Assembly: GCA_944332725.1 (NCBI GenBank)
Contig: CALVKO010000005.1
Span: 1-44,347, forward strand
DNA length: 44,347 nt
From: an uncultured Bacilli bacterium
Lineage (GTDB): Bacteria; Bacillota_I; Bacilli_A; RF39; UBA660
Direction: 5' to 3'
Under the pieces are notes generated by a model, which was not told the DNA's origin, did not search any database, and saw only the letters and a list, made by a program, of their open reading frames with translations. Numbering within the stretch: the stretch's first letter is position 1; the number at the start of each line of letters is the position of its first letter. The translations under genes were made by a program, and so were the position numbers. Positions 5,226 to 33,285 of the stretch are shown here, one piece after another.

Positions 5226-5235
5226 CTATAAATTA

Positions 5236-7329: not shown

Positions 7330-7334
7330 ATAAA

Positions 7335-7482: not shown

Positions 7483-7488
7483 ATTATA

Positions 7489-7517
7489 ATATTACAGCAA
7501 TTTTTTTATTTTGTCAA
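7489..7517 (-). promoter_or_regulatory. tracrRNA promoter overlapping the cas9 stop codon
   Basis: Consensus -35 TTGACA (7512-7517) whose TGA is the cas9 stop codon, a 17-bp spacer, and -10 TAATAT (7489-7494) preceded by TG. Expected start near 7482, three bases before the first anti-repeat. Confidence 0.65.
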
Positions 7518-15095: not shown

Positions 15096-15103
15096 TCTTT
15101 TTC
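15081..15103. terminator. Bidirectional terminator between tagO and yfhO
   Basis: Stem AAAAGATC / GATCTTTT (15081-15088 and 15094-15101) with a 5-nt loop and T-runs in both directions. It includes the last codons of both convergent genes, which overlap by 8 bp. Confidence 0.8.
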
Positions 15104-16359: not shown

Positions 16360-17560
16360 TTAATTTTTTTGGCCATTTAATAAATATCAAAAAAACTATA
16401 GTCAATAATAATAATTCTTTATAAACTTTTATAGCTGTAGTATATAATAAAACAATTAACATTACAAAAAATAATTTTTTGTAATTGATTTTATTTTTAT
16501 ATAACTTTTCAAAAAAATCACTTATAAAGACTATTATAATTGGTAATAAAGGAATTAATGATTTAGCATATATATATAAAGTACCATTTAAGATATAATT
16601 AAAAATAGGAAATGTAGCAAAGCATAATATAATGCTACCTAAAAATATATTTTCTTTTCTTTTAGAAATAGTATTATATACAATTGCTATAAAACTAACG
16701 GCACATAAACCTAAAGTATATCCACTATACAAAAAATAAGATAAAGATTTATTTGGTATAATTAAATCTGTATAATCAATTAGATCTCTTCCGCCAGTTC
16801 TACCACTAAACAGTGTATATGCTGTTGGCAATAAAACAAACATACCCATAATAATAGATATAAGAAAAGGATAAGTTAGTTTTATTATTTCTTTTAATTT
16901 AATTGGCTTATTATTTTTTATATGAATATAAATACAATAAATAAATAAGCCAAATAATGCACATATACTATAATAATAACTACTTATTATTATAAAAAAT
17001 AACGATATTATAAGTAAATCCATTTTCTTTTTATTAATTAATCTATCAATGCCAAATAATGATATAACGATAAATGGCATATAATTTATAAACATAATAT
17101 GTCTATGTGATTGAAATATTAATGGAGCTGATAACAGAAAAATTAAGCTGCTACTTAATGCAGTAATATAAGAAACTTTTTTTCTTAAATAAAAATACAT
17201 TAAAATAGAACTGCTAATAGGTATTAAACAACCGAAAAATTGAACAAAATCTATCATTTCTATAAATGGAAATAAAAATGACAAAAAAAGCATTGGAGAA
17301 AATAAACCATAATATAAAAAATTATAAATATTTTGTCCGCCACCCAAATTAAAAGCAAAATCAGGAAAAAAATCAAAAGTATCATAGAATAATTTTCTGA
17401 AATAGTCAGGTAAAACATAGTGCTGATTATACCAGTCCGTTGTAGATCCCCATAAATTATTATTCATAGTCATCATTAAAAAGATTGTAAAAAAAGAAAT
17501 AAGAATTAAACTTATAGCAAAAATATTTTGGTATTTTGAATTTTTTAATATCTTATTCAT
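16328..17560 (-). pseudogene. YfhO-like protein, N-terminal membrane part (frameshifted)
   Basis: 410-aa N-terminal part of a YfhO-family GT-C-like glycosyltransferase, with about 11-12 membrane segments. The first extracytoplasmic loop contains WYNQHYVLPDYFRKLFYDTFDF followed by FNLGGGQNIYNFLYYGLFSP, characteristic of the family. It ends prematurely at TAG 16328-16330 after WPKKLIIFIYYFIIF. One base gained or lost between 16328 and 16359, a tract of T and A only, would join it to the next frame. If the frameshift is real, teichoic acid glycosylation would be lost or phase-variable. ATG has AAAGGAC upstream, and the gene begins 4 bp after the TagH-like gene. Confidence 0.82.
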
Positions 17561-17564
17561 TGTA

Positions 17565-18299
17565 TCAGTCCTTTTTCATAAAATCTTCATAAGCACTTAT
17601 AACTTTTTCTGGATCACCAATTTGTTTAATTTTACCATCATGTAACCAAAGTACTTCATTACATAATTCTTTTAAGGTTCCTAAACTATGTGATACGATA
17701 ACAACAGTTCTATTTTCATCAGAAATTAATTCTTTCATTTTATTATAACTTTTTTCTTTAAACTTAACATCTCCTACACTAAAAACTTCATCTATCAACA
17801 TTATATCAGTTTCAAGAATAGCAGTTATAGAAAAAGCAAGTTTAGAGTACATTCCACTTGAATAACTTGATACCGGTTTATAAATAAATTTCCCTAATTC
17901 AGAAAATTCTATTATTTCATCAATTCTTTCTTTTATTTGATGTTCAGAAAAACCTAATAACATTCCTGATAAAAATATATTTTCGTAACCAGTTAATTTA
18001 TTTTGAAATCCAACACCAATCGATAACAATGATACAGAATTTCCATGTAAATCAATTGTACCAGAATCAGGAGAAAATATTCCTGCAATACTTCTTAACA
18101 TTGTAGATTTTCCACTACCATTTTTTCCTATTACACCTAATATTTTACCTTTTTCAACACTAAACGAAACTCCTCTAACAGCTTCAAAAATTTCTGATTT
18201 GTTTATTTTCATTTTTAATAAAGATTTTTTTATAGAAAAGCCTTTTAAAGTTCTATAACTTATATGTAAATCTTTAATAGTAATTGCATCTTTACTCAT
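17565..18299 (-). CDS. tagH: Teichoic acid export ABC transporter, ATP-binding subunit (TagH-like)
   Basis: Cytoplasmic ATPase of the Wzt/TagH/RfbE class that powers export of undecaprenyl-linked polymers. Walker A GKNGSGKST (near 58-66), signature SSYSSGMYSKLAF (near 143), Walker B DIMLIDEVFSVGD (near 164-176), and a switch His in VIVSHSLGT. The SSGM-type signature and EVFSVGD are typical of this family. At 244 aa it lacks the long C-terminal extension of B. subtilis TagH and any carbohydrate-binding domain. It overlaps the permease gene as ATGA, so the two are translationally coupled. Confidence 0.92.
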   Translation of the reverse strand: MSKDAITIKDLHISYRTLKGFSIKKSLLKMKINKSEIFEAVRGVSFSVEKGKILGVIGKNGSGKSTMLRSIAGIFSPDSGTIDLHGNSVSLLSIGVGFQNKLTGYENIFLSGMLLGFSEHQIKERIDEIIEFSELGKFIYKPVSSYSSGMYSKLAFSITAILETDIMLIDEVFSVGDVKFKEKSYNKMKELISDENRTVVIVSHSLGTLKELCNEVLWLHDGKIKQIGDPEKVISAYEDFMKKD

Positions 18300-19090
18300 T
18301 TTGTCACCTTCGCATAACTATTTTCATATTTTTGAATTGTTTTAATACCGATCATAGATAGAACAATACCAACAATTAACCATAACCCCAACATTCTATA
18401 ATTTACTATATGAGCATTTAAAAATGTTTTCCTAAATGAATCGATTATTAAAGCAATAGGATTAAGATTAACTAATATTCTATTATAAGGTGCCGGAATT
18501 CTAGTTGATATTGCATAAAATATACCGGACATATAGAATACTAATTTTAGACATATATTAGTAACATTACTTAAATCTTCAACAAAAACTCCAAAATGCA
18601 TTAAAATACAAGAAATACCAAATGATAATACAAATAATACAATTAAAACAGGCAAAAATTGCAAAATATATAAAGTATAAGGAACTTTAAATATAATCAT
18701 CATTATTAGTATTAATCCCCAAGATATAAACATTTTAAATAAATTAGTAAACATTTTAATTAAAACTAAAACATATTTAGGAATATATACTTTTGTAACT
18801 ATCGATTTATTGCTAGAAATTAGTTTTACACAGCCTGTAATATTGTTATTAAAGAAATTCCAAGCAGTTAATCCGATTAAAACAAATACAGGAAAATATT
18901 GCTCTTTTGTCTTAAAAACAACTTCAACCATAAATGTATATACTAACATAAAACACAATGGATCTAAAATCCACCATAACCAATTCAAATATGAATTAGC
19001 AACCTCTGCTTTTAAATTAGATTTTGTTGAATATAAAATATATTTAAAATATTTTTTTATATCATTAAAAAATTTTTTTATAGTAATCAC
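18296..19090 (-). CDS. tagG: Teichoic acid export ABC transporter, permease subunit (TagG-like)
   Basis: 264-aa ABC-2-type permease with six predicted membrane segments. It has the family stretch STKSNLKAEVANSYLNWLWW followed by ILDPLCFMLVYTFM (about 21-55), then FKTKEQYFPVFVLIGLTAWN and SFRKTFLNAH near the end. It pairs with the TagH-like ATPase and flips the finished polymer across the membrane. The GTG at 19090 overlaps its own Shine-Dalgarno (TAGAGGTG). A downstream ATA or ATT would be better spaced, and the same situation is seen in the small redoxin gene, so the exact start is uncertain. The function does not depend on this. Confidence 0.92.
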   Translation of the reverse strand: MITIKKFFNDIKKYFKYILYSTKSNLKAEVANSYLNWLWWILDPLCFMLVYTFMVEVVFKTKEQYFPVFVLIGLTAWNFFNNNITGCVKLISSNKSIVTKVYIPKYVLVLIKMFTNLFKMFISWGLILIMMIIFKVPYTLYILQFLPVLIVLFVLSFGISCILMHFGVFVEDLSNVTNICLKLVFYMSGIFYAISTRIPAPYNRILVNLNPIALIIDSFRKTFLNAHIVNYRMLGLWLIVGIVLSMIGIKTIQKYENSYAKVTK

Positions 19091-19092
19091 CT

Positions 19093-20850
19093 CTATTTTA
19101 AAAATTTATTTATAATTTTTTTATATGAAAAATCACGTACTATAATTTTTTTGTGACCAAAATTACAAATTAAATAATATTTCTTCTTATATACATTTGC
19201 TCCACTATTTATATATTTAACAAGTTTTAAAGCTTGTTTAAATTTGCGATGTTTTAAAGCATTATGAATTATTTTATAATTATATGACAAAATACGTATA
19301 TCAGAATTTTTAATTTTTCGATAATTGCATTTACTTGATATTTGCTTTATACATAAATTATGATTTGATAATTCGCCTAATAAAATTATATTGTTCTCTA
19401 TATTTGAAAAAAAGCCATTAAATTTTTTTACTAAATTTTCATTTTTATTTTTGCCAAAACCATAATAATTAATATTATCATTTGTAATCAAAAATTCATA
19501 ATTTAAATAATCATTATCAAATAAATTATTTTTTAAAGATTTTTTATACAATTTTTCCAAATCAATTTCAACTATGTAATGATGTAATTTATCTGATTCT
19601 ATTTTTTTATTATGTTTTTTTATATTACATAAATAATAACTATTATTTGTTTTTAAATAAACCTTAATAGGTCTATCCTTGACAAATAAAATAGGATAAA
19701 CAAATTTTATGTAAATTTTATTATGTTTTTTTATTATATTATTTATTTTGTATTTTTCTAAGTTATTTAATTCATATTTCATAGTTATATCAATATAATA
19801 ATTTTCATTTGTTAAAGAAAATAGTGCTAAAACTTTATTATCTGTTATTTTTATTTTATAATCATTATTAGATATTTTAGAATAAATAATCTCTAATTTT
19901 TCAATATCCAATCTGTCGTAAAATGCCTTAAGCAATAATAATTCTTTTATTTTCAAATTATTAATATACCTTTCATCATACCATTTTTTAACAACTTCAT
20001 ATAATTCATCAACCATTTCTTGTGTTGGTGAATTATTAATCAAATAAACAAGAGTTCTATAATTCATAGTTAATATTTTTTTTGATATTTCAAATTGAGA
20101 TTTATCATAATTATTATATTTAAGCAAAATATCATTAATTAATTTAAATGCAGCTATTCTTTTTTCAATCTTTAAAAAATTTTTGCTATTTTCTGATTTA
20201 CCTGAAGATAAATTTGTGCCATCATCTCTTTTTGTCCAATAATAATAATCATAATCACTAACAACCGAAATTTTATTAGCCAAAAAATATGATGTCAATG
20301 TAAAAATTGCATCTTCATACATAACATTACATGGGAAATAAATATTATTATCCCTTAAAAACTTAACGTTAAATAATTTCCATGGTCCTAAAGTTCGAAC
20401 AATTTTAGAATTATAGATATTCACACTTTCATAAGTTTTATCAAACATAGAAGTTGGTATTTCTTTTCTATTTGTTTTACCAATCTTTGCTAAAATAACA
20501 TCTGAGTGAAATTTTTTTATATGTTTGATTAATTTACTTATTGCTTCTTTGCCGAAATAATCATCAACATCTACAAAAAATATATATTCCCCTGAAGCGT
20601 GTTCAATTCCGTAATTTCTTCCTTTAGATGGTCCTCCGGAATTTTCTTGATGCATAATTTTAAAATTACTATATTTTTTTGCATATTCATCACAAACTTT
20701 TGATGAACCATCAGTTGAGCCATCGTCAACAACAATAACTTCAAAGTATTTTTTATCACATGTCTGATTAATTATTGATTCTAAACATTCATATAAATAT
20801 TTTTTTGCATTATAAGAGGTAACTAAAATTGTTATTTTATAATTTTTCAT
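19093..20850 (-). CDS. Family 2 glycosyltransferase with large C-terminal domain
   Basis: About 585 aa. The N-terminal GT-A domain (about 1-230) has KITILVTSYNAKKYLYECLE, VIVVDDGSTDGSS, SGGPSKGRNYGIEHASGEYI, and FFVDVDDYF with the DxD metal motif. The rest is a basic, Asn/Lys/Tyr-rich region with predicted beta structure, as in TarS/TarQ-type teichoic acid glycosyltransferases. Probably decorates the polymer or builds its repeat with a nucleotide sugar; donor and acceptor are unknown. I choose ATG 20850 (MKNYKITIL), the usual N-terminus, over GTG 20868. Neither has a convincing Shine-Dalgarno. The C-terminal half is even more AT-rich than its neighbours. Confidence 0.85.
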   Translation of the reverse strand: MKNYKITILVTSYNAKKYLYECLESIINQTCDKKYFEVIVVDDGSTDGSSKVCDEYAKKYSNFKIMHQENSGGPSKGRNYGIEHASGEYIFFVDVDDYFGKEAISKLIKHIKKFHSDVILAKIGKTNRKEIPTSMFDKTYESVNIYNSKIVRTLGPWKLFNVKFLRDNNIYFPCNVMYEDAIFTLTSYFLANKISVVSDYDYYYWTKRDDGTNLSSGKSENSKNFLKIEKRIAAFKLINDILLKYNNYDKSQFEISKKILTMNYRTLVYLINNSPTQEMVDELYEVVKKWYDERYINNLKIKELLLLKAFYDRLDIEKLEIIYSKISNNDYKIKITDNKVLALFSLTNENYYIDITMKYELNNLEKYKINNIIKKHNKIYIKFVYPILFVKDRPIKVYLKTNNSYYLCNIKKHNKKIESDKLHHYIVEIDLEKLYKKSLKNNLFDNDYLNYEFLITNDNINYYGFGKNKNENLVKKFNGFFSNIENNIILLGELSNHNLCIKQISSKCNYRKIKNSDIRILSYNYKIIHNALKHRKFKQALKLVKYINSGANVYKKKYYLICNFGHKKIIVRDFSYKKIINKFLK

Positions 20851-20943
20851 AAAACTTATACATACCACACATTGTTAATATAATTTTATAATATATAATT
20901 GTGTTCCTTTCTATTTTTTATTAAATTATAAATTAGACAAAAA

Positions 20944-23517
20944 TTACTTATTTTTATCTGTAAATTGTAAAATAGCATTATATATTCTTTCACAATTATT
21001 ATAATCATGAAAAGCGAAAAAATCATTTATTCTTTTATCATATTTTTTTTCTATTTTGCAATCATTGTCAATATATTTAATTAATGTATTTATTATTTCA
21101 TCATGTTCCTTACAAATTGGGCCAAATCCCATAGTATCGTATTTTAAAGCACCTTCTTCAAAACGTGGAGGTAATAATGTCGGATGATAATAAATTATAG
21201 GCTTATGCATATAAGCAAAGTCATATTGAATTCCTGAATAATCAGTAACCATTAATGCTGACTCAGTTAAAATTTTCTTATAACTGATATCACTTGTAGC
21301 TTGCATTAATATAACATAATCATTTTTATCATAATCATCTTGTTGTGCACTCATTGCAGGATGCAATAAAAAAATTATTTTATAATCATTTCTTTTTGCA
21401 CATTCAATTAATTCTTTGTCATTTATTAATGAATTATATATTTTAAAATAAATACTTTTTTTAAATTCTTCATTATATCCTTTAGGTAAATTCATATTCG
21501 AAGTACCAGAAACACTACGTCTCCAAGTTGGAGAAATTAAAATTTGTTTTTTTACATGAGATTTCATCATATCAAATCTAGCTAAGCCTGTCAAAGCTAA
21601 TTGATTATCTTCATATCCATAAATAGGTTCTTTTAAATGTTCAACTTCATAAATTGATGAGGTTGTATAAAACATTGTATTATCATATAGTCTATTTTGA
21701 ACTTCAGCATTTTTTTGAATTGTAAGTCCATGAGCTATACAAATAATATTAGCATTAAATAATCCTCTAAATGCTTTTTCTAATCTTTTGCCATATCCAC
21801 AAAATTTAATTATATCAGGATGAGTGGCAACAATATTTTCAGCATATAAACTAAATAGTTTATGTTTAATTGAATTAAATTTCAATAATTTTATACCTTT
21901 GTTTTTTAATCTATTATAGTCATAAGAATCTCTATTTATTACATAATAATGCAATATATTGTCATTTTTATTCATAGCATATTCTATTTGATGTTCTCCA
22001 TTATCATCAGCTTTATATAATTTATCAAAATATAGCCAAATTCGTTTTTTGCTATAAATAGGTTTTAAAATCCAATAAATTATTCTTAAAAATAATGTTT
22101 TAAATTTGTAAAAAAATGCAGATTTAATTAATAAGTCAAACATAAATATCATTTCATATATAAAATGAATAACAGCATTATTTTTTCTAAAAATTAGAAA
22201 ATTATTTTTATATTTTAAAATAATATTTTTATATTGCCAATAAGAATTTTTATATTTATTCGTTAATCTTGAAGCGGGTTTAATAAAACGTAATGGAAAT
22301 AAATATTTTCTGTTGCCAATTTGTAATAAAAATTGAATTTCTAATTTTTTTTCTTCAAATGGAATTTTAAATTGAAATGTATATTTTTTTGAAGTAGACA
22401 GCGCAAAAAATTTCGTTAAAGAATATATTCCAGTTTTTTGAAAATTAATTTTTTTACCATTTACCAATACATAAAAGTTATTAACTAAACATTCAAATAC
22501 ATTATGATAATTATAGTGAGCATCAATAATAATTTCATTTTGATTATAATTGAAAGCATCAATTTCAATAACATTACTATTTACATAAATTTTATCACTA
22601 TTTATAACAGTATAGATTCCATTATCATCAAAATCAACTTGAAAGTTCTTTATTTTATCTCTTAAGTAAAGCATTAAAAATTTAAAATCATATGAATTTT
22701 TTTTCTTATTATTAAAATAATCTATAGAAAAAATAATTTGTTTATCAATTAATTTTAATAATTCACCAATTTTAGAAAAAAATTCTTCTCTCTCTTTACC
22801 TATTAAAATTTCTTTATTCCTACTATTTTTATTCTCAAAAAATTTTTGAAATATAGAATAATATACTAATGATTGAGAATATTTATTTAATTTATTTTTG
22901 TATAATATTGGAATATAAATATTTTCAATAGAATAAGTATACCATTCTTTTTGATAACAACAAGATTTTTCTAGTTGATTTTCTGTAATTATTTTACAAT
23001 TTTTTAAATAATTTATCTCATATTTATTCAAATATTCTAATAATATTTGAATAACCACATCATAATCACAATTTGTTTCAATTATTCTCATATGCTTTAA
23101 AACAGAAGCCTTCAACACATATGATTCTATATGTGTTTCAAGATTAATATTATTTATTTTTTCTTTAGTATTTAGAAAGCTGTTACAATTTAAGCAATAT
23201 ACTTCCCTATTACTGATTTTTTTTAATATTTTAGTTAAAGTTTTTTTTGAAACAAATGAATTACTAAATTGAATATTGATATACTTTGTTTTTATTTGTT
23301 TTAAACTTATATCTAAACATTGATACAATGATTTTCCTACACAATCTAAAATAGTAAAATCATCATCATATTTTTTTAAATATTCTGTTACCGTACTATC
23401 ATTAATTTTATTTAAAATAATTAATTGAATATTTTTATTTTTACATATATTTACTAATTCATTTAATGATTTTTGATAACTGTTTGTTTCTAATATATAT
23501 ATAATTCCCAAATTCAT
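20944..23517 (-). CDS. Large two-part protein with C-terminal CDP-alditol phosphotransferase (TagF/TagB family)
   Basis: 857 aa. The C-terminal 380 residues are a TagF/TagB-family domain: VATHPDIIKFCGYG, NIICIAHGLTIQKNAEVQ (near 590), ALTGLARFDMM, ILISPTWRRS, LLHPAMS, and MVTDYSGIQYDFAYMHKPIIYY (near 760). This family transfers alditol phosphate from CDP-alditol to a growing polymer. The N-terminal 480 residues differ: a weak GT-A-like start (LGIIYILETNSYQKSLNELV) without a clear DxD, then a beta-rich region and an amphipathic basic helix before the catalytic domain. It follows the GatD-like gene after 14 bp. It is probably a polymerase of the cluster, and the alditol is not fixed by sequence. 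Confidence 0.85.
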   Translation of the reverse strand: MNLGIIYILETNSYQKSLNELVNICKNKNIQLIILNKINDSTVTEYLKKYDDDFTILDCVGKSLYQCLDISLKQIKTKYINIQFSNSFVSKKTLTKILKKISNREVYCLNCNSFLNTKEKINNINLETHIESYVLKASVLKHMRIIETNCDYDVVIQILLEYLNKYEINYLKNCKIITENQLEKSCCYQKEWYTYSIENIYIPILYKNKLNKYSQSLVYYSIFQKFFENKNSRNKEILIGKEREEFFSKIGELLKLIDKQIIFSIDYFNNKKKNSYDFKFLMLYLRDKIKNFQVDFDDNGIYTVINSDKIYVNSNVIEIDAFNYNQNEIIIDAHYNYHNVFECLVNNFYVLVNGKKINFQKTGIYSLTKFFALSTSKKYTFQFKIPFEEKKLEIQFLLQIGNRKYLFPLRFIKPASRLTNKYKNSYWQYKNIILKYKNNFLIFRKNNAVIHFIYEMIFMFDLLIKSAFFYKFKTLFLRIIYWILKPIYSKKRIWLYFDKLYKADDNGEHQIEYAMNKNDNILHYYVINRDSYDYNRLKNKGIKLLKFNSIKHKLFSLYAENIVATHPDIIKFCGYGKRLEKAFRGLFNANIICIAHGLTIQKNAEVQNRLYDNTMFYTTSSIYEVEHLKEPIYGYEDNQLALTGLARFDMMKSHVKKQILISPTWRRSVSGTSNMNLPKGYNEEFKKSIYFKIYNSLINDKELIECAKRNDYKIIFLLHPAMSAQQDDYDKNDYVILMQATSDISYKKILTESALMVTDYSGIQYDFAYMHKPIIYYHPTLLPPRFEEGALKYDTMGFGPICKEHDEIINTLIKYIDNDCKIEKKYDKRINDFFAFHDYNNCERIYNAILQFTDKNK

Positions 23518-23531: not shown

Positions 23532-24605
23532 TTAATAATTTTTCTTTTTCATTAAATTTTCATTACTATAAATTAATACTTTTCCATTCGGCTTTTTATC
23601 ATTTTTATAAAGTTCAAAGGCTGCACTAATATCTTCTAACAAATAACGATTATATATCATACTATCAGTAACTTTTAATTCTCCTGTATTAAATTTTTCT
23701 AAAGTTTTTAACCATTCAATACCAGGCCAAGGATATGAATAACTCATCCAAGAGCCAGTTAATTTAAATTCTTTACGATTTAATTGTTCCCACATTTTAG
23801 GAGTGAATGTTAAATCAGATGTTGGCGTTCCAACTAAACATATATTAGATCTATTACCAGAAATTTGAAAAGCTAATTGCATTAATTCGGCAGATCCTGC
23901 TGTTTCAAACACATAATCATATCCTCTATAATTTGTGAGTTTCATTAATTGTTCTAAAAAATCAGAATCTAAAGTACTTACAACATCAGTTGCTCCTAAT
24001 TTTAAAGAATTATTTAATTTTTCTTTATTTCGTCCTACAACGACAATCTTATTGGCACCTAAAATTTTAATCCATTGAATCATGAATGAGCCAATATTTC
24101 CTCCACCTAATATTACAACATTTTTACCTTTTTCATAATTTGTTAAATTTATTCCATGTAAAGCAACAGTTGATGGTTCAAAGAATGCTGCAGTTTCAAG
24201 TGATATATTGTCATTTATTTTAAATACATTTTTTTCATCTAAGACAATATATTCAGCCATGCTACCTTGTTGTCTAGAACCAACAAAACTATAATTTTTA
24301 CATAATGAATAATTACCTTTTTTACAATCTTCACATTGAAAACACGGAACTAATGGAATTCCAACAACATGATCGCCTACTGAAATATTTTTAACTTTTT
24401 TTCCAATTTCTTCAACTACTCCTGAAAATTCATGACCTAAAACAATTGGATAATTATGAGCGCCATTTTTCCATACACGAGTAATATCAGAACCACAAAT
24501 TCCAGTTACAGCAACTTTTATTTTTATACTATTATCAGATAATTTAGGCATTTCCAAATCATCATATTCAACTAAACCATTTTTTTTTACAATTCCTGCT
24601 TTCAT
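23532..24605 (-). CDS. Zinc-dependent alditol-phosphate dehydrogenase, GatD-like
   Basis: Medium-chain dehydrogenase/reductase, 357 aa, most like galactitol-1-phosphate 5-dehydrogenase (GatD), which interconverts galactitol-1-P and tagatose-6-P with NAD(H). Catalytic zinc ligands: Cys37 (GICGSD), His58-Glu59 (LGHEFSG), Glu143 (FEPSTVALH). Structural zinc: Cys88, Cys91, Cys94, Cys102. Rossmann motif GGGNIG at 167-172. The equivalent in ribitol teichoic acid clusters is TarJ, which belongs to the same superfamily and supplies ribitol-5-P. Here the neighbours suggest it works in the reducing direction to supply an alditol phosphate for the cytidylyltransferase. Its ATG overlaps the GatZ-like stop as ATGA. 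TarJ-like or sorbitol-P specificity is not excluded. Confidence 0.82.
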   Translation of the reverse strand: MKAGIVKKNGLVEYDDLEMPKLSDNSIKIKVAVTGICGSDITRVWKNGAHNYPIVLGHEFSGVVEEIGKKVKNISVGDHVVGIPLVPCFQCEDCKKGNYSLCKNYSFVGSRQQGSMAEYIVLDEKNVFKINDNISLETAAFFEPSTVALHGINLTNYEKGKNVVILGGGNIGSFMIQWIKILGANKIVVVGRNKEKLNNSLKLGATDVVSTLDSDFLEQLMKLTNYRGYDYVFETAGSAELMQLAFQISGNRSNICLVGTPTSDLTFTPKMWEQLNRKEFKLTGSWMSYSYPWPGIEWLKTLEKFNTGELKVTDSMIYNRYLLEDISAAFELYKNDKKPNGKVLIYSNENLMKKKNY

Positions 24606-25930
24606 TTTATAAACACCCCACTTATCATGTAATTATGTTTAACGGCATAATTATAATCTTCTACAATTGAAACAACAGCATCTTTAGTCAATTCATATGC
24701 ATCTGATTTTAATTTACCATCTCGAACTTTTATATATTGTAAAGGCATATATTGATGTAACATACCTAATGGAATACTAACATTTTTAAAATTATTAAAT
24801 AATTTTTCTTGTGCTGCTACAACTTTTGGCAATGAAAAATAATATCTACTTCTATCAGAAAAACTATATTTTCTAGCTATTTTTTTATCTTGCTCACTAC
24901 CATGATAATGTTTAACCCAATTATGATCATCTTCTAACATAACTTCTTCTAATGTTTCTATAAAATTAGCTCGTTTATTAGCATCACTAATTAATTCTTT
25001 TTCCATATAACTTAGTGCAAATAAAGCCTCTCTAACAGCAAAAGTTAATGCAGGCCCAACTTTTAAAATAGCAATTCCATCTTCAACCATTTCTTTTAAT
25101 TTAATTGGAGGTTGATAATCAGTGGAATGTCCCTCAAAAACAATATCAGGATATTTTTTTAATGTATCACATAATTTTATGGCATCTAATCTGTTATATA
25201 TATGCAATTCATTATTTCCAAATTCTACACCAGGTTGAACGACAATACCTATAATATGCTCCCAAGCACCATCTAATCCATGTTTTTTAAATATTTTTTT
25301 ATAAGTTAAAATAGTATTTTCAAAATCTTCTGGTGTCGTAACCTTAAGTCCTTCATCTTCCTGTGTTCCTCCAGGAATAGGAACTTCGCTACCTATTATA
25401 TATACTGGATGAACAGCATTCGGATTAGTTTTTAGTAAATCATTATACGCCTTTTCACACTCTTTATATAAAATAGCACCCCTTTCAGCTATTTTTTCAA
25501 CTGATAAAGGTTTATCAATCGGATCATCTCCTAATTTCATAGATGTATCCAAATGAACTTTAGTATAACCTGCCAAAACGCATTGTCTTACTAAAACCTT
25601 GGCTTTTGACATAGCGTCTTTTTCTGGTTCATCACACCAAGTAAGAGGTCCTAAATGATCTCCTCCTAAAACAATTTTACTTTTATCAAAATTAATTCTG
25701 TCAGCAATTTTATATACATAATCACGAAAATCTTCAGAAGTCATATCCATATAGCCACCATATTGATTAACTTGATTTGCCGTAGCTTCAATCAAAACAA
25801 TATCATCAAACCTTTTTGCTTGTTCCATTATAGCTTCAATAACAATTTTATTAGCACTGCAAAAAGAAGGAACACCACAATTAATACCTATTTTTCTTTT
25901 TTCTACCATATTTAATAAATTATTTTTCAT
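24602..25930 (-). CDS. GatZ/KbaZ family protein (tagatose-phosphate enzyme)
   Basis: 442 aa, full-length member of the GatZ/KbaZ/AgaZ family: GINCGVPSFCSANKIVIEAI, LIEATANQVNQYGGY, ILGGDHLGP-type (VLGGDHLGPLTW), KVHLDTSMKLGDDP, YIIGSEVPIPGG, VVQPGVEFGN, FEGHSTDYQ, and LKVGPALTFAVREALFAL. In E. coli GatZ is the non-catalytic partner of the tagatose-bisphosphate aldolase GatY, but no GatY is present here. A family member in Agrobacterium has been described as D-tagatose-6-P 4-epimerase (EC 5.1.3.40, from memory), which fits better: it would make tagatose-6-P from fructose-6-P for the GatD-like enzyme. Strong AAGGAG Shine-Dalgarno. Coupled to the next gene by ATGA overlap. Confidence 0.85.
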   Translation of the reverse strand: MKNNLLNMVEKRKIGINCGVPSFCSANKIVIEAIMEQAKRFDDIVLIEATANQVNQYGGYMDMTSEDFRDYVYKIADRINFDKSKIVLGGDHLGPLTWCDEPEKDAMSKAKVLVRQCVLAGYTKVHLDTSMKLGDDPIDKPLSVEKIAERGAILYKECEKAYNDLLKTNPNAVHPVYIIGSEVPIPGGTQEDEGLKVTTPEDFENTILTYKKIFKKHGLDGAWEHIIGIVVQPGVEFGNNELHIYNRLDAIKLCDTLKKYPDIVFEGHSTDYQPPIKLKEMVEDGIAILKVGPALTFAVREALFALSYMEKELISDANKRANFIETLEEVMLEDDHNWVKHYHGSEQDKKIARKYSFSDRSRYYFSLPKVVAAQEKLFNNFKNVSIPLGMLHQYMPLQYIKVRDGKLKSDAYELTKDAVVSIVEDYNYAVKHNYMISGVFIK

Positions 25931-25946
25931 AAGATCAACTCCTTAA

Positions 25947-26660
25947 TTATTTAAAATATACTTCGCTAACTTTTTTTATCAAATTCATATCACTTTGATA
26001 TGTTATTTTTAAATTAAATTCTTTTGTTTCTATAGCCTTCATTTTAATATTGTTTTTAAGAGCAATCGCACCAGCAGAAGTCAACTCATTTAATTTATCT
26101 TTCGAAGTATTTCTATATATATCAAAAATTTGTCCGAATCTAAATCCTTCAGGTGATGCTCCTGCTATAACTTTTGCTCTTGGAATAACTTGTTCTATTT
26201 CTTTAGTTTCTTCATTCATATAATAAGTCGTATCATATTGGAATTCCGCTAAAGTTGCTGCTCCATAATCTTTTATTGCATTAATAACTTTTTCAACACC
26301 TTCAGAATCAACAAATGGATGAGTTGCATCATACATCAAAACTATATCATTTTCTTTTGCAAAGTTATTAATCACATTAAGACCAGATAATATATCTTGT
26401 GATCTACCATTACCTCCAGTAATAATTTTATAAATTTTATCTATATTGGATTTTTCAATCCATTCCTTTGTATATTCAAGATATTTTGGATTGGTTATTA
26501 CCACAATATCATCTATACATTTTATCTTATTTAATTCTTTCAAAATATAAATAAATATTGGTTGTTCATTTATTAAATAAAACTGCTTTGGAATGTCAGT
26601 ACCAAAACGTGTGCCATTTCCAGCCATCATTAACAACAAAATATTTTTTGTCTCACTCAT
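25947..26660 (-). CDS. IspD/TarI-family cytidylyltransferase
   Basis: 237-aa CTP-dependent nucleotidyltransferase. The nucleotide loop is MMAGNGTRFGTDIPKQF (residues 11-27, with Arg18 and Lys25). ITGGNGRSQDILSGL, MYDATHPFVD (109-118) and VIPRAKVIAGASPEGFRFGQIF follow, with FNLKITYQSDMNLI near the end. The family contains IspD (CDP-methylerythritol) and TarI (CDP-ribitol). This copy departs from both at the substrate site: the usual DAxRP is DATHP, and the usual TPQ is SPE. First gene of an operon with the GatZ- and GatD-like genes, so the proposed product is a CDP-hexitol such as CDP-galactitol. TarI or IspD activity remains an alternative. Shine-Dalgarno GAGAGGTG. Confidence 0.85.
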   Translation of the reverse strand: MSETKNILLLMMAGNGTRFGTDIPKQFYLINEQPIFIYILKELNKIKCIDDIVVITNPKYLEYTKEWIEKSNIDKIYKIITGGNGRSQDILSGLNVINNFAKENDIVLMYDATHPFVDSEGVEKVINAIKDYGAATLAEFQYDTTYYMNEETKEIEQVIPRAKVIAGASPEGFRFGQIFDIYRNTSKDKLNELTSAGAIALKNNIKMKAIETKEFNLKITYQSDMNLIKKVSEVYFK

Positions 26661-26682
26661 TTACTACACCTCTCATAATAAA

Positions 26683-26711
26683 ATTCTAGCATTTTTACTA
26701 TTAAAAGTCAA
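26683..26711 (-). promoter_or_regulatory. Promoter of the cytidylyltransferase-GatZ-GatD operon
   Basis: -35 TTGACT (26706-26711), 17-bp spacer, -10 TAGAAT (26683-26688) in TGCTAGAAT (extended -10). Probably drives the whole leftward run down to yfhO, since the following genes are overlapping or closely spaced. Confidence 0.72.
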
Positions 26712-26736: not shown

Positions 26737-26755
26737 TAAAAAAGAAGCTCTTTTA
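26737..26755 (-). terminator. Weak terminator after the TagB-like gene
   Basis: Short stem AAAAGA / TCTTTT with a 3-nt loop, then T-rich on the minus strand. It lies between the TagF/TagB pair and the promoter of the CDP-alditol operon. Modest support. Confidence 0.45.
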
Positions 26756-26765
26756 AATGAACCTC

Positions 26766-27881
26766 TCACATATATTTAGAAATCAATTCTACTATTTTTG
26801 TAGTACATTTTTCTTTTGGAATTGTAACATTTTTTTTAACAAATTGTTCAAACTTTTTATTATAAAAATTATTATTTTCTATCTCATAGATTATTTTTTT
26901 AGGATCATCAGTAAAAAGTAAACCTGTATCATGTTCTATATCAAAATTTAACTCTCTTTTAGCTTTATATTCGTTCCAATCATAAGCATACAAGTAAAGT
27001 GGTAATTTTAAAAGTCCTACTTCATAAATAATGCTTGAATAATCACATATAACATAATCAGCAACAAATAAAGCTTCAAAAGTAGATTCAAAATTTGTAA
27101 TAACTCTTTTATCTTCACATTTAATTGTATTAAATGGATGAGGTTTATACAATAAATTATATTTACTAAAATCAATCTCATTAATTAAATCTTGTATATT
27201 TTTACAACCATTCTGTTGCTTTTTTCTAAAAGTTGAACAATATAAAATGTTTTTTTTATTTTTTAATTGTGGGATTCTTTTGTAAAGTTTATCTTGTACT
27301 TGCTTTTTATAATTTTTGTCAAGCAACAAATCTACACGTGGCAATGGTATTTCTTTTACTATGTTTTTACTTATTCCAAAGCCTTCTTCAAAATCTTTTA
27401 TAAAACTAAAAGATGAAATCAAAACAATATTATAGTTTTGATGCATGTGCATTATTTTCGCTAATTGTGCTGTTGTTCCTTCTTCTTTTCCTATCATAGC
27501 ATATCCAAATTTTTTCATACTACCTATTGCATGCCAAATTTGAATAACAGTTAGTTTTTTTTTGTGTTTCAGTAAACTAATTACAATACAATATGAATCT
27601 AATATAACTACTTTAGAAGTAGCAATATGATACATTTGCCTAAACATATGAAAAATATATTTAAATTTATTATCAATTTTTTTAGTAAGAACGATAGTCT
27701 TATAATTTGGATATTTTTTGTTTAATTCTTCAATCAACAACTTAAAATCCAATGTTATTGAATTTGATTGTCTACTAACAAATGTAACTTTTTGCTTAGT
27801 AGGAAATAATTTTATAAAACTATAAATTATTTTTAAAATAAAAATACATATTTTTAAAATAAAATATTTTATTTGTTGCAT
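26766..27881 (-). CDS. CDP-glycerol/alditol phosphotransferase family protein (TagB-like)
   Basis: 371-aa TagB/TagF-family enzyme, about the size of B. subtilis TagB, which primes the teichoic acid linkage unit. An N-terminal hydrophobic and basic helix (FILKICIFILKIIYSFIKLF) should associate with the membrane. Family motifs: VIQIWHAIGSMKKFGYAMIG (near 113, with His), ILYCSTFRKKQQNG, LLYKPHPFNT, and DYVICDYSSIIYEVGLLKLPLYLYAYDW (near 280). The gene overlaps the end of the larger TagF-like gene by 13 bp and has an AAAGGAA Shine-Dalgarno, so they are co-transcribed. Whether it uses CDP-glycerol or the proposed CDP-hexitol cannot be told from sequence. Confidence 0.88.
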   Translation of the reverse strand: MQQIKYFILKICIFILKIIYSFIKLFPTKQKVTFVSRQSNSITLDFKLLIEELNKKYPNYKTIVLTKKIDNKFKYIFHMFRQMYHIATSKVVILDSYCIVISLLKHKKKLTVIQIWHAIGSMKKFGYAMIGKEEGTTAQLAKIMHMHQNYNIVLISSFSFIKDFEEGFGISKNIVKEIPLPRVDLLLDKNYKKQVQDKLYKRIPQLKNKKNILYCSTFRKKQQNGCKNIQDLINEIDFSKYNLLYKPHPFNTIKCEDKRVITNFESTFEALFVADYVICDYSSIIYEVGLLKLPLYLYAYDWNEYKAKRELNFDIEHDTGLLFTDDPKKIIYEIENNNFYNKKFEQFVKKNVTIPKEKCTTKIVELISKYM

Positions 27882-29509
27882 ATATCTTCATTCCTTTTTC
27901 CTAAAAGTATAAAATCTATTACCTGATCACTAGCAGTTTTTTTATTTTTTACACAATTATCAACTAAAAAATCTATTTTTTCTTTTTGACTATAATCTTT
28001 ATTATATAAACTTTTTAACAATTCTTCAAAAGTTTCACAAACTTTACCAGGAGCAACATCATCTATTGGTCTATGAACACCTCTAGTAGCTGAATAAATT
28101 GTTTTATCATATACATAAAATAAAACAGGTTTGTTTAATAATAGAAAATCATAAAAACACGACGAATAATCAGTAACTAAAACATCTGTAACATAAAATA
28201 AATCATTTAATTTATATTCCGACATATCATATATTAAATCTTTATATTCTTTTTTTATAGGTATATTTTGTTTTATAAAATGATGTTTCCCAAAAGTAAT
28301 AACTGAATTTGTTTTTTTACAAAATTCATAAAGTTTATCAAAGTCTATTTTATCATAATCATAATATGCGTTTTTTTGTGAACTGCCTCTATATGTTGGA
28401 GCAAAAGTAATAATTTTTTTATTTTTTAATTGTGGATATGATTTATAAAAATGTTCTTTTTTTTCATTTATTATTTTTTTGTCTAAAAAATTATCTAATC
28501 TTGGCATTCCAGTTGGTAATAATGCATCTTTTTCAATTCCCCAAACTTCGGAATAAATTTCTTTTAAATTTTCATTTCCTATTAAGCCATATGTATATTT
28601 TCTATGACATGATGTTGTAGGTCTTGGTGATCCTTCAATTCCAAACCTACCATATCCAACTAATTTAAATCCAAAGCCAGCATGCCAAGTTTGAATTAGT
28701 TTTGTTTTTTTATTTAAATTTAAAAATGAAAATATAGGGACATAATCATCAACAAAAATATAATCACTCTTTGCTATTTTTGTTAATACTTTTAACCATT
28801 CAAAAGGATTTTGTCTTTTTTTATCAAAAATATTTCTAAAACTATATGAAATTTTAAATTTTTTATCTAATTTTCTTTCTTTAATTCTTTTATCAATTGC
28901 TTCTAAATTATCCATTATTTTAATTCTGTTTTCTGACATAAATAAAATTCTTTTCCCTGTTTTTGGGGTAAAATGAGTTATAATTTGATAATACATATTT
29001 AACAAAAATTTTAGGAATGAAATTAATTTTATTTTAACTTTTTTTAACAATATTATTTTACCATTTTTTATACTTTGATTCATATAACTACTTAAAAAAC
29101 TTATATATATATATTCGTTATTCTCTATGCATGATATGTTCAATTTAAATGTTAAAACATAAGCATAAAGATCATGGCAATACCTAAAAACTCTAGATAA
29201 ATTTTCAATATTATTCATCAATTCATTAGATATATTATATCTAATAAAAAAATTATTATTAATTATTATTCTCCATTCTCCAGGAAATAATAAATTTCTT
29301 CCTTCAGCAATTGTTATATTTATTTTACATCTATATTTATTATCACCAATTTTTTTTGTTTCTAGTATATGTTCCTTTAAGATTTTATATTTTTTTTTAT
29401 CAATCATTGCAATTGATATTTGAATAGGTTTTATTGAAAAATATTCTATAAATAAATATGTTCTTTTCCAAAAAATATTAGTAATAATTGGCATTTCACT
29501 TTTATTCAT
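27869..29509 (-). CDS. CDP-glycerol/alditol phosphotransferase family protein (TagF-like)
   Basis: 546 aa. The N-terminal 170 residues form a predicted beta-rich domain (YRCKINITIAEGRNLLFPGEWRI) as in TagF/TarL-type polymerases. The C-terminal catalytic domain has KLIQTWHAGFGFKLVGYG (near 275), ALLPTGMPRLDNFLD, IITFAPTYRGSSQKNAYYDY, FGKHHF, and DVLVTDYSSCFYDFLLLNKPVLFYVYD (near 455). Start ATG 29509 has GAGAGGTGTAG upstream, the same leader sequence as the cytidylyltransferase gene. Probably a second primer or polymerase for the surface polymer. First gene of its operon. Confidence 0.88.
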   Translation of the reverse strand: MNKSEMPIITNIFWKRTYLFIEYFSIKPIQISIAMIDKKKYKILKEHILETKKIGDNKYRCKINITIAEGRNLLFPGEWRIIINNNFFIRYNISNELMNNIENLSRVFRYCHDLYAYVLTFKLNISCIENNEYIYISFLSSYMNQSIKNGKIILLKKVKIKLISFLKFLLNMYYQIITHFTPKTGKRILFMSENRIKIMDNLEAIDKRIKERKLDKKFKISYSFRNIFDKKRQNPFEWLKVLTKIAKSDYIFVDDYVPIFSFLNLNKKTKLIQTWHAGFGFKLVGYGRFGIEGSPRPTTSCHRKYTYGLIGNENLKEIYSEVWGIEKDALLPTGMPRLDNFLDKKIINEKKEHFYKSYPQLKNKKIITFAPTYRGSSQKNAYYDYDKIDFDKLYEFCKKTNSVITFGKHHFIKQNIPIKKEYKDLIYDMSEYKLNDLFYVTDVLVTDYSSCFYDFLLLNKPVLFYVYDKTIYSATRGVHRPIDDVAPGKVCETFEELLKSLYNKDYSQKEKIDFLVDNCVKNKKTASDQVIDFILLGKRNEDICNK

Positions 29510-29576: not shown

Positions 29577-29601
29577 AAAAAAATGACTATAAATTAGCCA
29601 T
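29577..29601 (-). terminator. Terminator after the cohesin-like gene
   Basis: Stem AATGGCT / AGTCATT (one G-T pair) with a 7-nt loop followed by seven T on the minus strand; it overlaps the gene's stop codon. Confidence 0.75.
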
Positions 29602-31032
29602 TTCTTGTTCTGGTGTTTCAGAATCAGTACCTTTATTTTTCTTAGCTAACTTTTTAGCTAATTTTTTTTCTTTCTTTAACTCTTTTTTTGTTTTAATATC
29701 TAGCACATTATCTAATGTATTACTATTTACATCAATTATATTCATACGCATTGTCTTATCTAAAAAATTCTTTTGTTTTTTATTTTTATTAATTAGCAAC
29801 ACAATAAATATAACATAGGAAACAATTATAAATCCAAACATACCTATTAAAGAGTTAAAATAAAGATCATCATCAATAGTTACATCTTCATATCTTTGTA
29901 AAGTGTTTTCTTTAGAGTCATATTTATATAAACTTTTAGTACCATTTTCTAAATTTAAACCATATATTAACGGATATTCATAACCATCTTTTTTATATGC
30001 CGTTATAGTTTTATCACCAATAGCAATTGTTGTTTCGTTATATCCTTTTGGTATTAATGAACTATCCATATCTAATAATTGAATTGTTAAAGAATTAAAT
30101 TTAATTTCATTATATAATGTATATTCATTTTCATTTACTATATAAAAATTAATATTTCCTTCAGAATCTTTTAAACATATTAAAGTTATATTAGATAATT
30201 CATTATAGAAAGCAGGAACTTCCTTACCATTAATTAAAGTTGTCGTTTGTTTAAAATAATCATTTGGTTTTAGTAAAAATTCTTCTTCTTGTATAACATT
30301 AAAAGTATTATTATCTATTGTTACTTCAATTGGATCTAACTCTTTTACTATTGCATTTATAACATATGTTCTTGTATTACCTTTTTGGGCCGTTACAACA
30401 ATTTCTATTTTATTAGCACCTTTACTTACTTCTATTTCACCAGTACCTGATATACTAGATTTACTATCTTCCTTAGTAGCATTAACAACAATTTTTTTAG
30501 TATTTGGTTCTAATTCAATGGTATATTCTAATGTATCTTTATCAAATTTTGGACTTAATGTAGCTCCTTCTACTTCTAAATTAGATAAATAATCATTTTT
30601 ACTATAATTTGCTTCGGCTTGTTCTTGACTCATTATACTAACACTAGTACCACTTTTGTTTAAATTCATTTCACCATTCCAACCCATTACAGAAGCTGAA
30701 CTAACTGATATACTAGCAGTTCCTGATGCTTTTGCTTTAAAAGTATAAGTATATGAAGCCGTCTTTTGTTTTTCTGTCATATCTAATCCTACAACATGAA
30801 AATCATGATCTGATTTAACAAAGGATAATTTTGAAGTATCATATTTCAAATTAAATTCCCAATTAGCCATCGGCGTAGACGAAGATACAGTAACAGTTAC
30901 CGTAAAAGTATTACCAATAATTAAACTAGAACGATTAGTTGTAACTTTTATATTTGCAGTTGCTGCATCGGCTACTACAGGAATACAAAACGAAATAAAT
31001 ATTGTAAATAATAAAATTAAAATTTTTTTCAT
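29587..31032 (-). CDS. Membrane-anchored cohesin-like surface protein with cadherin-like domain
   Basis: 481 aa. Signal peptide (MKKILILLFTIFISFCIPVVADA). A cohesin-type beta-sandwich (about 25-135) has SLIIGNTFTVTVTVSSSTPM, NWEFNLKYDTSKLSFVKSD, and YTFKAKASGTASISVSSASV. A cadherin-like beta-sandwich follows (about 145-230: YLSNLEVEGATLSPKFDKDT, then TRTYVINAIVK), then a second beta-rich region. A membrane helix (about 395-418) and a Lys-rich cytoplasmic tail close the protein. It is 9 bp downstream of a glucosaminidase ending in a dockerin, so the cohesin probably holds that enzyme at the cell surface. The cohesin assignment is by pattern; the fold is well supported, binding is inference. 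Confidence 0.78.
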   Translation of the reverse strand: MKKILILLFTIFISFCIPVVADAATANIKVTTNRSSLIIGNTFTVTVTVSSSTPMANWEFNLKYDTSKLSFVKSDHDFHVVGLDMTEKQKTASYTYTFKAKASGTASISVSSASVMGWNGEMNLNKSGTSVSIMSQEQAEANYSKNDYLSNLEVEGATLSPKFDKDTLEYTIELEPNTKKIVVNATKEDSKSSISGTGEIEVSKGANKIEIVVTAQKGNTRTYVINAIVKELDPIEVTIDNNTFNVIQEEEFLLKPNDYFKQTTTLINGKEVPAFYNELSNITLICLKDSEGNINFYIVNENEYTLYNEIKFNSLTIQLLDMDSSLIPKGYNETTIAIGDKTITAYKKDGYEYPLIYGLNLENGTKSLYKYDSKENTLQRYEDVTIDDDLYFNSLIGMFGFIIVSYVIFIVLLINKNKKQKNFLDKTMRMNIIDVNSNTLDNVLDIKTKKELKKEKKLAKKLAKKNKGTDSETPEQEMANL

Positions 31033-31041
31033 TTATACCTC

Positions 31042-33285
31042 CTATTGTTTAATTTTATCGCCTAAGATATGTTTTTGAACATATAATAAATCGTGTAAGT
31101 CTATTTTGCCATCTTTATTTATATCCCCGGCTTTTAAATAAATACCAGATATATTAGATTTTTCTAATATTAATTTTTGAACTTCTAGTAAATCCGCTAA
31201 GGTTACATCACCAGATCCATCTAAATCACCAAGAATTAATATTTCATATATTTTAGTTTCTTCACCAATAGTAATAGTTAACTTATCACCTGTTGCAAAT
31301 GTAGTTGTTTTAACTTTACCATCTGCATCACTTAATGTTACAGTTGCTTGATTATTATATTTATAAATTTTATCTTTAAATGAATTATAAGTTGTTCCTA
31401 TTTCGATACCACTCATTATATTTCCATTTACTTTAACGCTTAATTGATCAATTACTTCATCTATTGTTGTAGGATTTTCTATTTCTTCAGTAATTTTATT
31501 AACATTTAATATATAAGTTCTTTTATCACCATTTTCAGCAGTAACAACAACATTCAATTTATTCATTCCATCATTTAAATTAATTGTTCCATTACCACTA
31601 ACCTTAGCCTTACTATTTACAGTAGTTGTTGTAATTTTAATACTACTATTTTTAGTATTGTAATCATAAGAAGTTATTTCACCATCAAAACCTGTAACAG
31701 ATTTACCATCTATTTTTAAACTAGATAACCAATTATTAGGATTTCCTTTATTTGGTTGAGCATAATTAGTTTCTTTCATATTATCATAAATTGGAATATA
31801 AAATACTATTGCTTCATCAATATCACCATTTTTGACATATGCCGAATAAGTTGTAGAAGATTCAGAATATGGTGCTTGAATGTTAGTCATATATTGATGA
31901 GTATTAATTGTACTATCTGATGCAGGATTAACATTAAATCTTTGAAAATATAAAGTTTGTTGACCACTTAATATATAATTATCTCCTAAATGAACTGATC
32001 CTTCCAAAATTGAAATATATGGATTATTCCATCCTCTTTTTTTAGCATAAATTAAACCATTAATAACTGCATCATTACCATTAGCCGCATACGCATTAAC
32101 ATTAAAGAAATTATAATATCCTTTATATCCAGAAACTGTACCAGACGCACTACCACTTGCTTTACCACCACTAATAACAACTTCTTGTTTTACTCTGGCT
32201 GCCAAAACATAAGGACTAACGCCCGAATATTGGCCTGCTTCAACAAATGTAGTTGAATATCTTTTATTTCCTCCATTATAACTAAATTTTCCAGACATGA
32301 ATGTTCCATTCAAAACTGATTGAACACCAGATTCATTTTGATAATCATGATAAGTTAAATCCTCAAACATAAATATTCTAGTTTCATTTAAAAAATTTCT
32401 AGGATCTAAATAATGAGCGACTATGCCTTCACTTGCTGCTTTCCATGAATCACCATCATATCCTTTCCAAGTATCAGTTCGCCAATTATAAGCACCTTCT
32501 TTAGTTGAACGCCAACCCTCATTACTTGTCCAAATTAAACTTTTAGAACCAGTTGCCTGTGCTTTTACTACCCTATCAAATTTTAAATTAGTATCGATAG
32601 CATAGAATTTCCAAGATGGATGATCTTCATGTAATTCTTTTAAATATTTTTGATAACTTTCTGGAAATTTTGCTAATTCTTTTTCATAATCATAATTAGG
32701 ATCAACAGTACTTTCAACTAATTCAACATATGTTGTACAAACATAACCATATCCAGTATCACTATCAGCATATGATATTTTATACCATTTTTTACTTCCG
32801 CAAGTATCTTTACTATTAGCTGAATCAACAGTATCTAATATTGTTACTACCCTACCATTTGCTAGTCCATCACTAATAGAACTATAACTTGTACTAGCGC
32901 CCTCTCTTACAATAACACCAATTTCAGAATTAATTTTACCTTTTAAATGCTCTGTAACAGGTGTACTTTCACGTTTTTCAATATAACTAGTACAAACATA
33001 ACCTTCAGTATAATCTTCTTGATTATATTCTATTTTATACCACTTTCCAGTTGCACAACCTGTAGAACTATCTTGAGTTGCTACTTCATCTAATATTTTA
33101 ACTACTTCACCTTCACCAAAGCCAGTTCCAATAACACTAAAATTAGTTCCTGCTCCACTTCTTACACGTACTCCCAAATTATTTTCAGTTTCAACAATGC
33201 CATAAACATTCGTAGCAGCAATCATAAATGGGAAAATTGATAATACAACACCTATTAGAATTAATAAGCAAATTAGTCGTTTCAT
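31042..33285 (-). CDS. Secreted glucosaminidase with SH3, cadherin-like and dockerin domains
   Basis: 747-aa cell-wall hydrolase. Signal peptide (about 1-25). Two bacterial SH3 domains follow (about 30-105 and 112-190; GVRVRSGAGTNFSVIGTG and GVIVREGASTSYSSISDG). Next is a glucosaminidase domain of the GH73 type (about 225-520) with AARVKQEVVISGG (catalytic Glu) and YKGYYNFFNVNAYA. A cadherin-like sandwich (about 540-620, NWLSSLKIDGKSV) precedes a type I dockerin (about 690-745). The dockerin has two calcium loops: DLDGSGDVTLADLLEVQKLI and DINKDGKIDLHDLLYVQKHI. Predicted to cut peptidoglycan glycan chains during growth or separation. A dockerin on an autolysin next to a cohesin-like anchor is unusual. 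Shine-Dalgarno AAGGTGATG; own promoter just upstream. Confidence 0.9.
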   Translation of the reverse strand: MKRLICLLILIGVVLSIFPFMIAATNVYGIVETENNLGVRVRSGAGTNFSVIGTGFGEGEVVKILDEVATQDSSTGCATGKWYKIEYNQEDYTEGYVCTSYIEKRESTPVTEHLKGKINSEIGVIVREGASTSYSSISDGLANGRVVTILDTVDSANSKDTCGSKKWYKISYADSDTGYGYVCTTYVELVESTVDPNYDYEKELAKFPESYQKYLKELHEDHPSWKFYAIDTNLKFDRVVKAQATGSKSLIWTSNEGWRSTKEGAYNWRTDTWKGYDGDSWKAASEGIVAHYLDPRNFLNETRIFMFEDLTYHDYQNESGVQSVLNGTFMSGKFSYNGGNKRYSTTFVEAGQYSGVSPYVLAARVKQEVVISGGKASGSASGTVSGYKGYYNFFNVNAYAANGNDAVINGLIYAKKRGWNNPYISILEGSVHLGDNYILSGQQTLYFQRFNVNPASDSTINTHQYMTNIQAPYSESSTTYSAYVKNGDIDEAIVFYIPIYDNMKETNYAQPNKGNPNNWLSSLKIDGKSVTGFDGEITSYDYNTKNSSIKITTTTVNSKAKVSGNGTINLNDGMNKLNVVVTAENGDKRTYILNVNKITEEIENPTTIDEVIDQLSVKVNGNIMSGIEIGTTYNSFKDKIYKYNNQATVTLSDADGKVKTTTFATGDKLTITIGEETKIYEILILGDLDGSGDVTLADLLEVQKLILEKSNISGIYLKAGDINKDGKIDLHDLLYVQKHILGDKIKQ

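Follow-up and report, generated by a model that had tools for sequence, protein, structure and literature searches.

We examined three adjacent genes within a 44,347-nt contig (CALVKO010000005.1 of assembly GCA_944332725.1; the entire contig is referred to as the window) from an uncultured Bacilli bacterium (RF39; UBA660). The genes encode a cytidylyltransferase of the IspD/TarI family (CytT), a GatZ/KbaZ-family protein (GatZ) and a GatD-type zinc dehydrogenase, and the trio is probably a cassette for biosynthesis of cytidine diphosphate (CDP)-galactitol, feeding a teichoic-acid-like polymer. GatZ, by homology to E. coli GatZ/KbaZ, would epimerise D-fructose-6-phosphate at C4 to D-tagatose-6-phosphate; the GatD-type enzyme, with the catabolic reaction reversed, would convert tagatose-6-phosphate to galactitol-1-phosphate; and CytT would transfer CMP from CTP onto galactitol-1-phosphate to give CDP-galactitol. 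The galactitol-phosphate would then be added by TagF857, encoded next to the trio, to a teichoic-acid-like polymer begun by a TagO-type enzyme and exported by TagGH. The first step relies on published activity of the homologues, and we infer the later ones from family specificity and context; the stereochemistry of the alditol (galactitol as opposed to another hexitol) and the placing of reduction before cytidylyl transfer are likewise what sequence comparison suggests. This route had been put forward in the initial annotation of the window, and it was supported here by the epimerase precedent, by the clades formed by the trio proteins, by recurrence of the trio, and by swapping of supply cassettes among related loci; most of the conditions named beforehand as refuting it turned out in its favour. 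With slightly less confidence, we think it likely that CDP-galactitol is an activated alditol not seen before, produced de novo from fructose-6-phosphate by way of a biosynthetic GatZ, that the CytT-GatZ core is common to gut Firmicutes and Methanobrevibacter, that two unrelated reductases were recruited independently beside this core, and that the product feeds galactitol-phosphate surface polymers.

The three enzymes

All three open reading frames (ORFs) lie on the minus strand, where Pfam and NCBIfam matches agreed with the names first given to them: CytT at 25947–26660 (237 aa; PF01128, E 3e-27), GatZ at 24602–25930 (442 aa; PF08013, E 2e-165), and the GatD-type gene at 23532–24605 (357 aa; best NCBIfam model galactitol-1-phosphate 5-dehydrogenase, E 3e-94). 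The gap between CytT and GatZ, reported earlier as 17 bp, measured 16 nt, and an AAGGAG precedes the GatZ start; GatZ and GatD overlap by ATGA as described. The same three genes were found together in further bacteria, so their grouping is not due to chance.

The proposal had been conditional upon GatZ being a tagatose-6-phosphate 4-epimerase. The GatZ and KbaZ proteins of E. coli, annotated for long as aldolase chaperones, turn fructose-6-phosphate into tagatose-6-phosphate in cells, and a zinc retro-aldol mechanism employing His88, His257, Glu171 and Asp87 was proposed for them from modelling (PMC11907403). The window GatZ scored 551 bits to PF08013 (curated cut-off 26.7) and retains every proposed residue: E. 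coli GatZ C20, E44, D87, H88, E171, H257 and K279 correspond to C24, E48, D91, H92, E182, H268 and K290. These seven positions were identical in all 66 GatZ homologues compared, which shows competence and not direction, and their use to discriminate biosynthetic from catabolic GatZ was dropped. In the tree, GatZs partnered by CytT, bacterial and archaeal, formed one clade (support 97/95) that included none of the 52 other GatZs. Linkage to CytT was judged from this tree and not by a Fisher test, because the sequences are related and non-independent; long branches on several rows of the trees led us to give no weight to deep placements. A role for GatZ as an aldolase subunit was rejected because the trio has no adjacent GatY partner. 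In the window's own genome (71% complete) a single class II aldolase was detected, encoded on another contig and scoring above the curated cut-off for fructose-bisphosphate aldolase; a GatY-type aldolase was not found in that genome.

The nearest solved relative of the dehydrogenase was E. coli galactitol-1-phosphate dehydrogenase (4a2c, E 1e-75; next match 3e-40). It keeps GatD motifs that are absent from TarJ, including a motif of the GSWM[SN]YS type, and the structural-zinc cysteines are also kept, in line with the earlier view that this reductase resembles galactitol-1-phosphate dehydrogenase. The GatDs of the trios clustered away from catabolic GatDs with weaker support (81/99).

CytT has the TarI/IspD fold in its predicted structure (pLDDT 85, TarI being the top fold match), yet the CytTs of the trio and archaeal loci formed one clade (100/99), separate from TarI, from IspD, and from CytTs paired with a short-chain dehydrogenase/reductase (SDR). 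In this clade, three changes serve as marks: ARP/VRP (with the arginine that is conserved in IspD and TarI) is replaced by THP, TPQ by GASPE, and TDAC by TS[AG]GA. The window CytT scored below the cut-offs of both the TarI model NF001183 (119 bits; cut-off 166) and the IspD model TIGR00453 (126 bits; cut-off 181). IspF was absent from all 58 genomes of the window's family that were searched for IspF and IspD, the window's own genome included, which makes it very improbable that the methylerythritol phosphate pathway operates; IspD-family matches occurred in only 13 of the 58, and no second IspD-family protein was found in the window's own genome. An isoprenoid role of CytT was rejected on the missing IspF. 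One compared locus (L002; L-numbers denote compared loci) has separate TarI, TarJ and TagD genes directly after CytT, and this speaks against CytT using a ribitol or glycerol substrate. A CDP-ribitol product was rejected on this arrangement, on the CytT clade, and on the type of reductase; the clade speaks against the TarI-like specificity that had been named as a possible refutation.

Recurrence and exchange of the cassette

The distribution of the trio was assessed by a genome scan and surveys covering about 1,200 genomes, including 291 genomes of the window's family and 139 Methanobacteriaceae genomes. CytT, GatZ and a GatD-type gene were found together in the window and in L002, L003, L004, L005, L006, L007, L019 and L021, from Clostridia and Bacilli (in L021 the genes, and in L019 CytT, are split into several ORFs). 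L005 is the same locus as L029 of genome G214; within the window's family, no genome besides G214 and the window's own was found to have the trio, and full GatZ was present in only 2 of the 291 family genomes. CytT adjoins GatZ in most loci, and every bacterial trio has a LicD or Glyphos_transf gene within or near it, so that in the window and its relatives the cytidylyltransferase and reductase are tied to CDP-alditol phosphotransferases. PTS (phosphotransferase system), sugar transporter, kinase and gatY/kbaY genes were not detected beside the bacterial trios or the archaeal pairs at the loci examined, and on this ground galactitol catabolism was rejected. Other GatZ genes of Clostridia and Bacilli have no CytT neighbour, and their nameable neighbours were GatD, KbaY, PTS, AgaS and kinase genes. 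The check proposed beforehand, for conservation of the trio with phosphotransferases and without gatY, came out in favour at these bacterial loci, with an E. coli plasmid relative (below) as the exception. In L002 (7977–16516), GatZ-GatD-LicD-CytT runs directly into TarI-TarJ-TagD, so that a single locus holds three neighbouring systems for CDP-alditol supply.

GatZ was present in 6 of the 139 Methanobacteriaceae genomes, and at all six loci (L008, L009, L011, L012, L014 and L088, Methanobrevibacter-type) it adjoins CytT with an SDR gene close by; a GatD orthologue was not found in the five of these six genomes that were searched. The nearest plasmid relatives of the archaeal SDR were CytT-paired SDRs (29–39% identity; UDP-glucuronate decarboxylase types, about 29%). 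It resembles the CDP-6-fructose reductase of C. jejuni (8v4g), and UDP-glucuronate decarboxylases matched equally well in the PDB, so that an SDR-based order of steps in archaea is given as a lead: in Methanobrevibacter the SDR would replace GatD, probably reducing CDP-6-tagatose after cytidylyl transfer. Most of the six loci also carry LicD genes. The combination of CytT-GatZ-SDR and LicD is predicted to represent teichoic-acid-like chemistry in pseudomurein archaea.

Homologues of TagF857 were found in 31 of the 291 family genomes when TagF857 was the query, the closest (53%) in G214. Loci of this kind have homologues of TagF371, TagF546 and TagF857 in common, often with TagGH, and this shared chassis carries variable genes for CDP-alditol supply: TarI and TarJ in L121, L122, L128 and L129; TagD in L125; CytT with an SDR in L115 and L116; and CytT with GatZ and GatD in L029 and in the window itself. 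In several further chassis loci no supply gene was recognised. TagF857 proteins beside the trio or beside CytT with SDR formed one clade (100/100), along with one TagF857 whose cassette is unknown, and this hexitol-cassette clade was separate from the TagF857s beside ribitol or glycerol cassettes. Its members have an N-terminal GT2 domain (20944–22400 in the window) without the DGS and DxD motifs, a domain that looked intact in the ribitol- and glycerol-linked relatives, and the transferase domain has a HGLTIQ..QNR motif of its own, less exact in L116. The TagF371 tree did not track cassette type, and TagF371 was rejected as the alditol-specific transferase. Because the TagF857 clade follows the hexitol cassettes and shows these motif changes, and the TagF371 tree does not follow them, the comparison suggests that it is TagF857 which transfers the hexitol phosphate. 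The interchange of cassettes on one chassis supports a CDP-hexitol role for the trio, and it provides a natural experiment in the adaptation of phosphotransferases to different alditols.

A related coupling was seen in E. coli, where plasmid LR890578.1 (L094, 4847–11537) and one other plasmid (L098, 16557–23259) carry an IS1-riddled block of Glyphos_transf, CytT, gatZ, gatY and gatD genes; PTS genes were not seen in the block of either plasmid. The whole block is rare: apart from plasmid LR890578.1, a search of 5,426 complete E. coli genomes found it in one. The plasmid CytT carries most motifs of the trio CytT clade, and the plasmid gatD scored just below its curated cut-off. The plasmid GatZ is of the enterobacterial type, and for this reason the coupling of CytT to gat enzymes apparently arose there independently; its repetition supports the proposed chemistry.

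Opposing evidence and alternative readings

Several observations weigh against the trio being a CDP-galactitol cassette. The GatD-type enzyme reached 316 bits against the 550-bit cut-off of the equivalog model NF007642, though this was its best model, and we therefore name it GatD-type and not GatD. The active-site residues, being the same in all GatZ homologues compared, cannot separate a biosynthetic from a catabolic GatZ. At 71% completeness, gene absences in the window's own genome are weak evidence on their own. The plasmid block ties gatY to a CytT-gatZ-gatD set, and so an association of gatY in relatives, which had been named beforehand as telling against the proposal, does occur in one distant relative. 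Finally, the archaeal SDR may mean that cytidylyl transfer comes first in those organisms.

The last point bears on the alternative that survives best, one we regard as unlikely, in which CytT makes CDP-6-D-tagatose and the dehydrogenase then reduces it, the product being CDP-galactitol or its C2 epimer (talitol/altritol type). There is precedent in C. jejuni HS:5, where a PF01128 enzyme activates fructose-6-phosphate and an SDR then reduces CDP-6-fructose (PMC10918830), and the Methanobrevibacter SDR, with its likeness to 8v4g and its CytT-paired plasmid relatives, accompanies a CytT of the trio clade. However, the reductases of the bacterial trios are GatD-type and retain GatD motifs, the known GatD reaction uses a phosphate ester, and the equally good match of the archaeal SDR to UDP-glucuronate decarboxylases detracts from the comparison with 8v4g. 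Reduction of tagatose-6-phosphate prior to cytidylyl transfer thus remains the order that we favour for the bacterial trio.

It is considerably less probable that GatZ is not a fructose-6-phosphate epimerase, with GatD reducing fructose-6-phosphate directly and CDP-mannitol or CDP-glucitol as the product, formed by another kind of reductase than usual. Cassettes for both of these are known (PMC10918830), and two relatives have CytT-SDR pairs on this chassis; but GatZ stays beside CytT in bacteria and archaea despite the change of reductase, and so is likely needed, and CytT falls outside the SDR-paired clade and is accompanied by a GatD-type reductase. We hold it very unlikely that GatZ and GatD are a galactitol or tagatose catabolic unit that happens to sit in a polymer cluster. 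The CytT-less GatZ-GatD pairs of other Clostridia do look catabolic; against this, no PTS, kinase or GatY was detected beside the cassette, CytT is the immediate neighbour of GatZ in most loci, and the GatZ and GatD of the trios each cluster away from the catabolic ones. Least credible is that CytT, for all its IspD/TarI-family fold and top match to TarI, makes CDP-ribitol or (as IspD) CDP-methylerythritol with the Gat genes incidental, given its placement in a clade of its own, the changes it shows where TarI and IspD are conserved, the true TarIJ beside CytT in L002, the IspF and IspD counts given above, and that neither pathway has use for GatZ.

The surrounding cluster and known systems

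The neighbours named in the initial annotation (three Glyphos_transf proteins, a TagGH-like transporter and a TagO-type gene) were all found. TagF857 (20944–23517, minus strand; PF04464), the proposed hexitol-phosphate transferase, has a degenerate N-terminal GT2 domain followed by a Glyphos_transf domain and begins 14 nt past the GatD-like gene; because of this short spacing the trio and TagF857 are probably one transcription unit. A GT2 glycosyltransferase gene (19093–20868, minus; PF00535, E 2e-37) follows after 75 nt, and then come the TagG-like ABC permease (18296–19090, minus; PF01061) and the TagH-like ABC ATPase (17565–18299, minus; PF00005), whose best NCBIfam models were teichoic acid export ATPases, below cut-off. 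On the other side of the trio are two Glyphos_transf proteins of the shared chassis, TagF371 (26766–27881, minus; PF04464), homologues of which adjoin several cassette types, and TagF546 (27869–29509, minus; PF04464), nearest to the NCBIfam TarL model and below its cut-off. The TagO-type (Glycos_transf_4) gene for the lipid-linked initiating transferase (14034–15095, plus strand; PF00953, E 1e-38) is about 8.4 kb off. TagD was not found in the window's own genome.

The trio had been credited with its own strong promoter. A consensus scan found a promoter-like site (TTGACT-17-TAGAAT with an extended TG; 26683–26711, minus) that is well placed, directly behind a terminator-like hairpin between TagF371 and the trio (26742–26767, minus). 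Its strength is unproven because such matches were no commoner in this AT-rich region than in shuffled DNA (187 seen, 181 expected).

Two adjacent ORFs 3' of TagH (15088–17560) match the ends of the YfhO profile (2–315 and 499–835) and are putatively a YfhO-type membrane protein that is split or interrupted. Next to the polymer cluster (29587–33285) lie genes for a secreted protein of SH3/cadherin-like/dockerin type and for one of cohesin/cadherin-like type; both have homologues beside the TagO-type gene in L122 (15985–19001). Elsewhere in the window (3871–10717) there is a CRISPR-like array of 19 register copies with 66-nt spacing and one step of 131, next to a Cas1 gene (6451–7347), a small ORF (6113–6454), an unassigned 291-aa ORF (5251–6126) and a 1067-aa HNH/RuvC protein of the Cas9 kind (7514–10717); judged by this predicted content, it is a compact type II CRISPR system.

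In 5.39 million open-access papers, CDP-galactitol was not found, nor was anything pertinent on galactitol phosphate or on teichoic acids with galactitol (subscription journals were mostly outside the search), in keeping with the initial statement that galactitol-phosphate backbones fed by this route are not known to be described. The account of the CDP-glucitol and CDP-mannitol pathways mentions neither galactitol nor tagatose (PMC10918830). If our reading is true, the trio adds a further type of CDP-alditol supply to the known ones, which serve glycerol, ribitol, mannitol/glucitol and arabinitol, GatZ proteins (previously called aldolase chaperones) have a biosynthetic role, and galactitol-phosphate polymers are predicted on gut bacteria and methanogens.

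The trio belongs to a known broad kind, the CDP-alditol supply cassettes. As in the TarI-TarJ system of ribitol wall teichoic acid, which occupies the same chassis in the window's family, a reductase and an IspD-fold cytidylyltransferase would supply a CDP-alditol to TagF/TarL-type transferases; unlike that system, the trio adds GatZ, has a GatD-type reductase in place of TarJ, and has a CytT with its own clade and motifs. With glycerol and ribitol wall teichoic acid clusters the window shares an initiating enzyme (TagO), an exporter (TagGH) and Glyphos_transf proteins (TagF/TarL), and it differs in having a TagF857 of the hexitol-linked clade and in the lack of a detected TagD in its 71% complete genome. 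The C. jejuni HS5.18/HS5.17 (CDP-6-glucitol) and S. pneumoniae Mnp1/Mnp2 (CDP-mannitol) pathways also employ a PF01128 cytidylyltransferase and start from fructose-6-phosphate, and the archaeal CytT-GatZ version uses a related SDR. Those pathways, however, have no epimerase and use an SDR where the bacterial trio has a GatD-type enzyme, and the SDR-paired CytTs in our tree, which are plasmid proxies and do not include HS5.18 or Mnp1 themselves, fell in a separate clade. The trio resembles the E. coli gat operon and GatZ/KbaZ in its use of GatZ and GatD, with tagatose-6-phosphate and galactitol-1-phosphate as intermediates, whereas the trio is proposed to be biosynthetic, with a cytidylyltransferase and a polymerase alongside in place of PTS, kinase and GatY.

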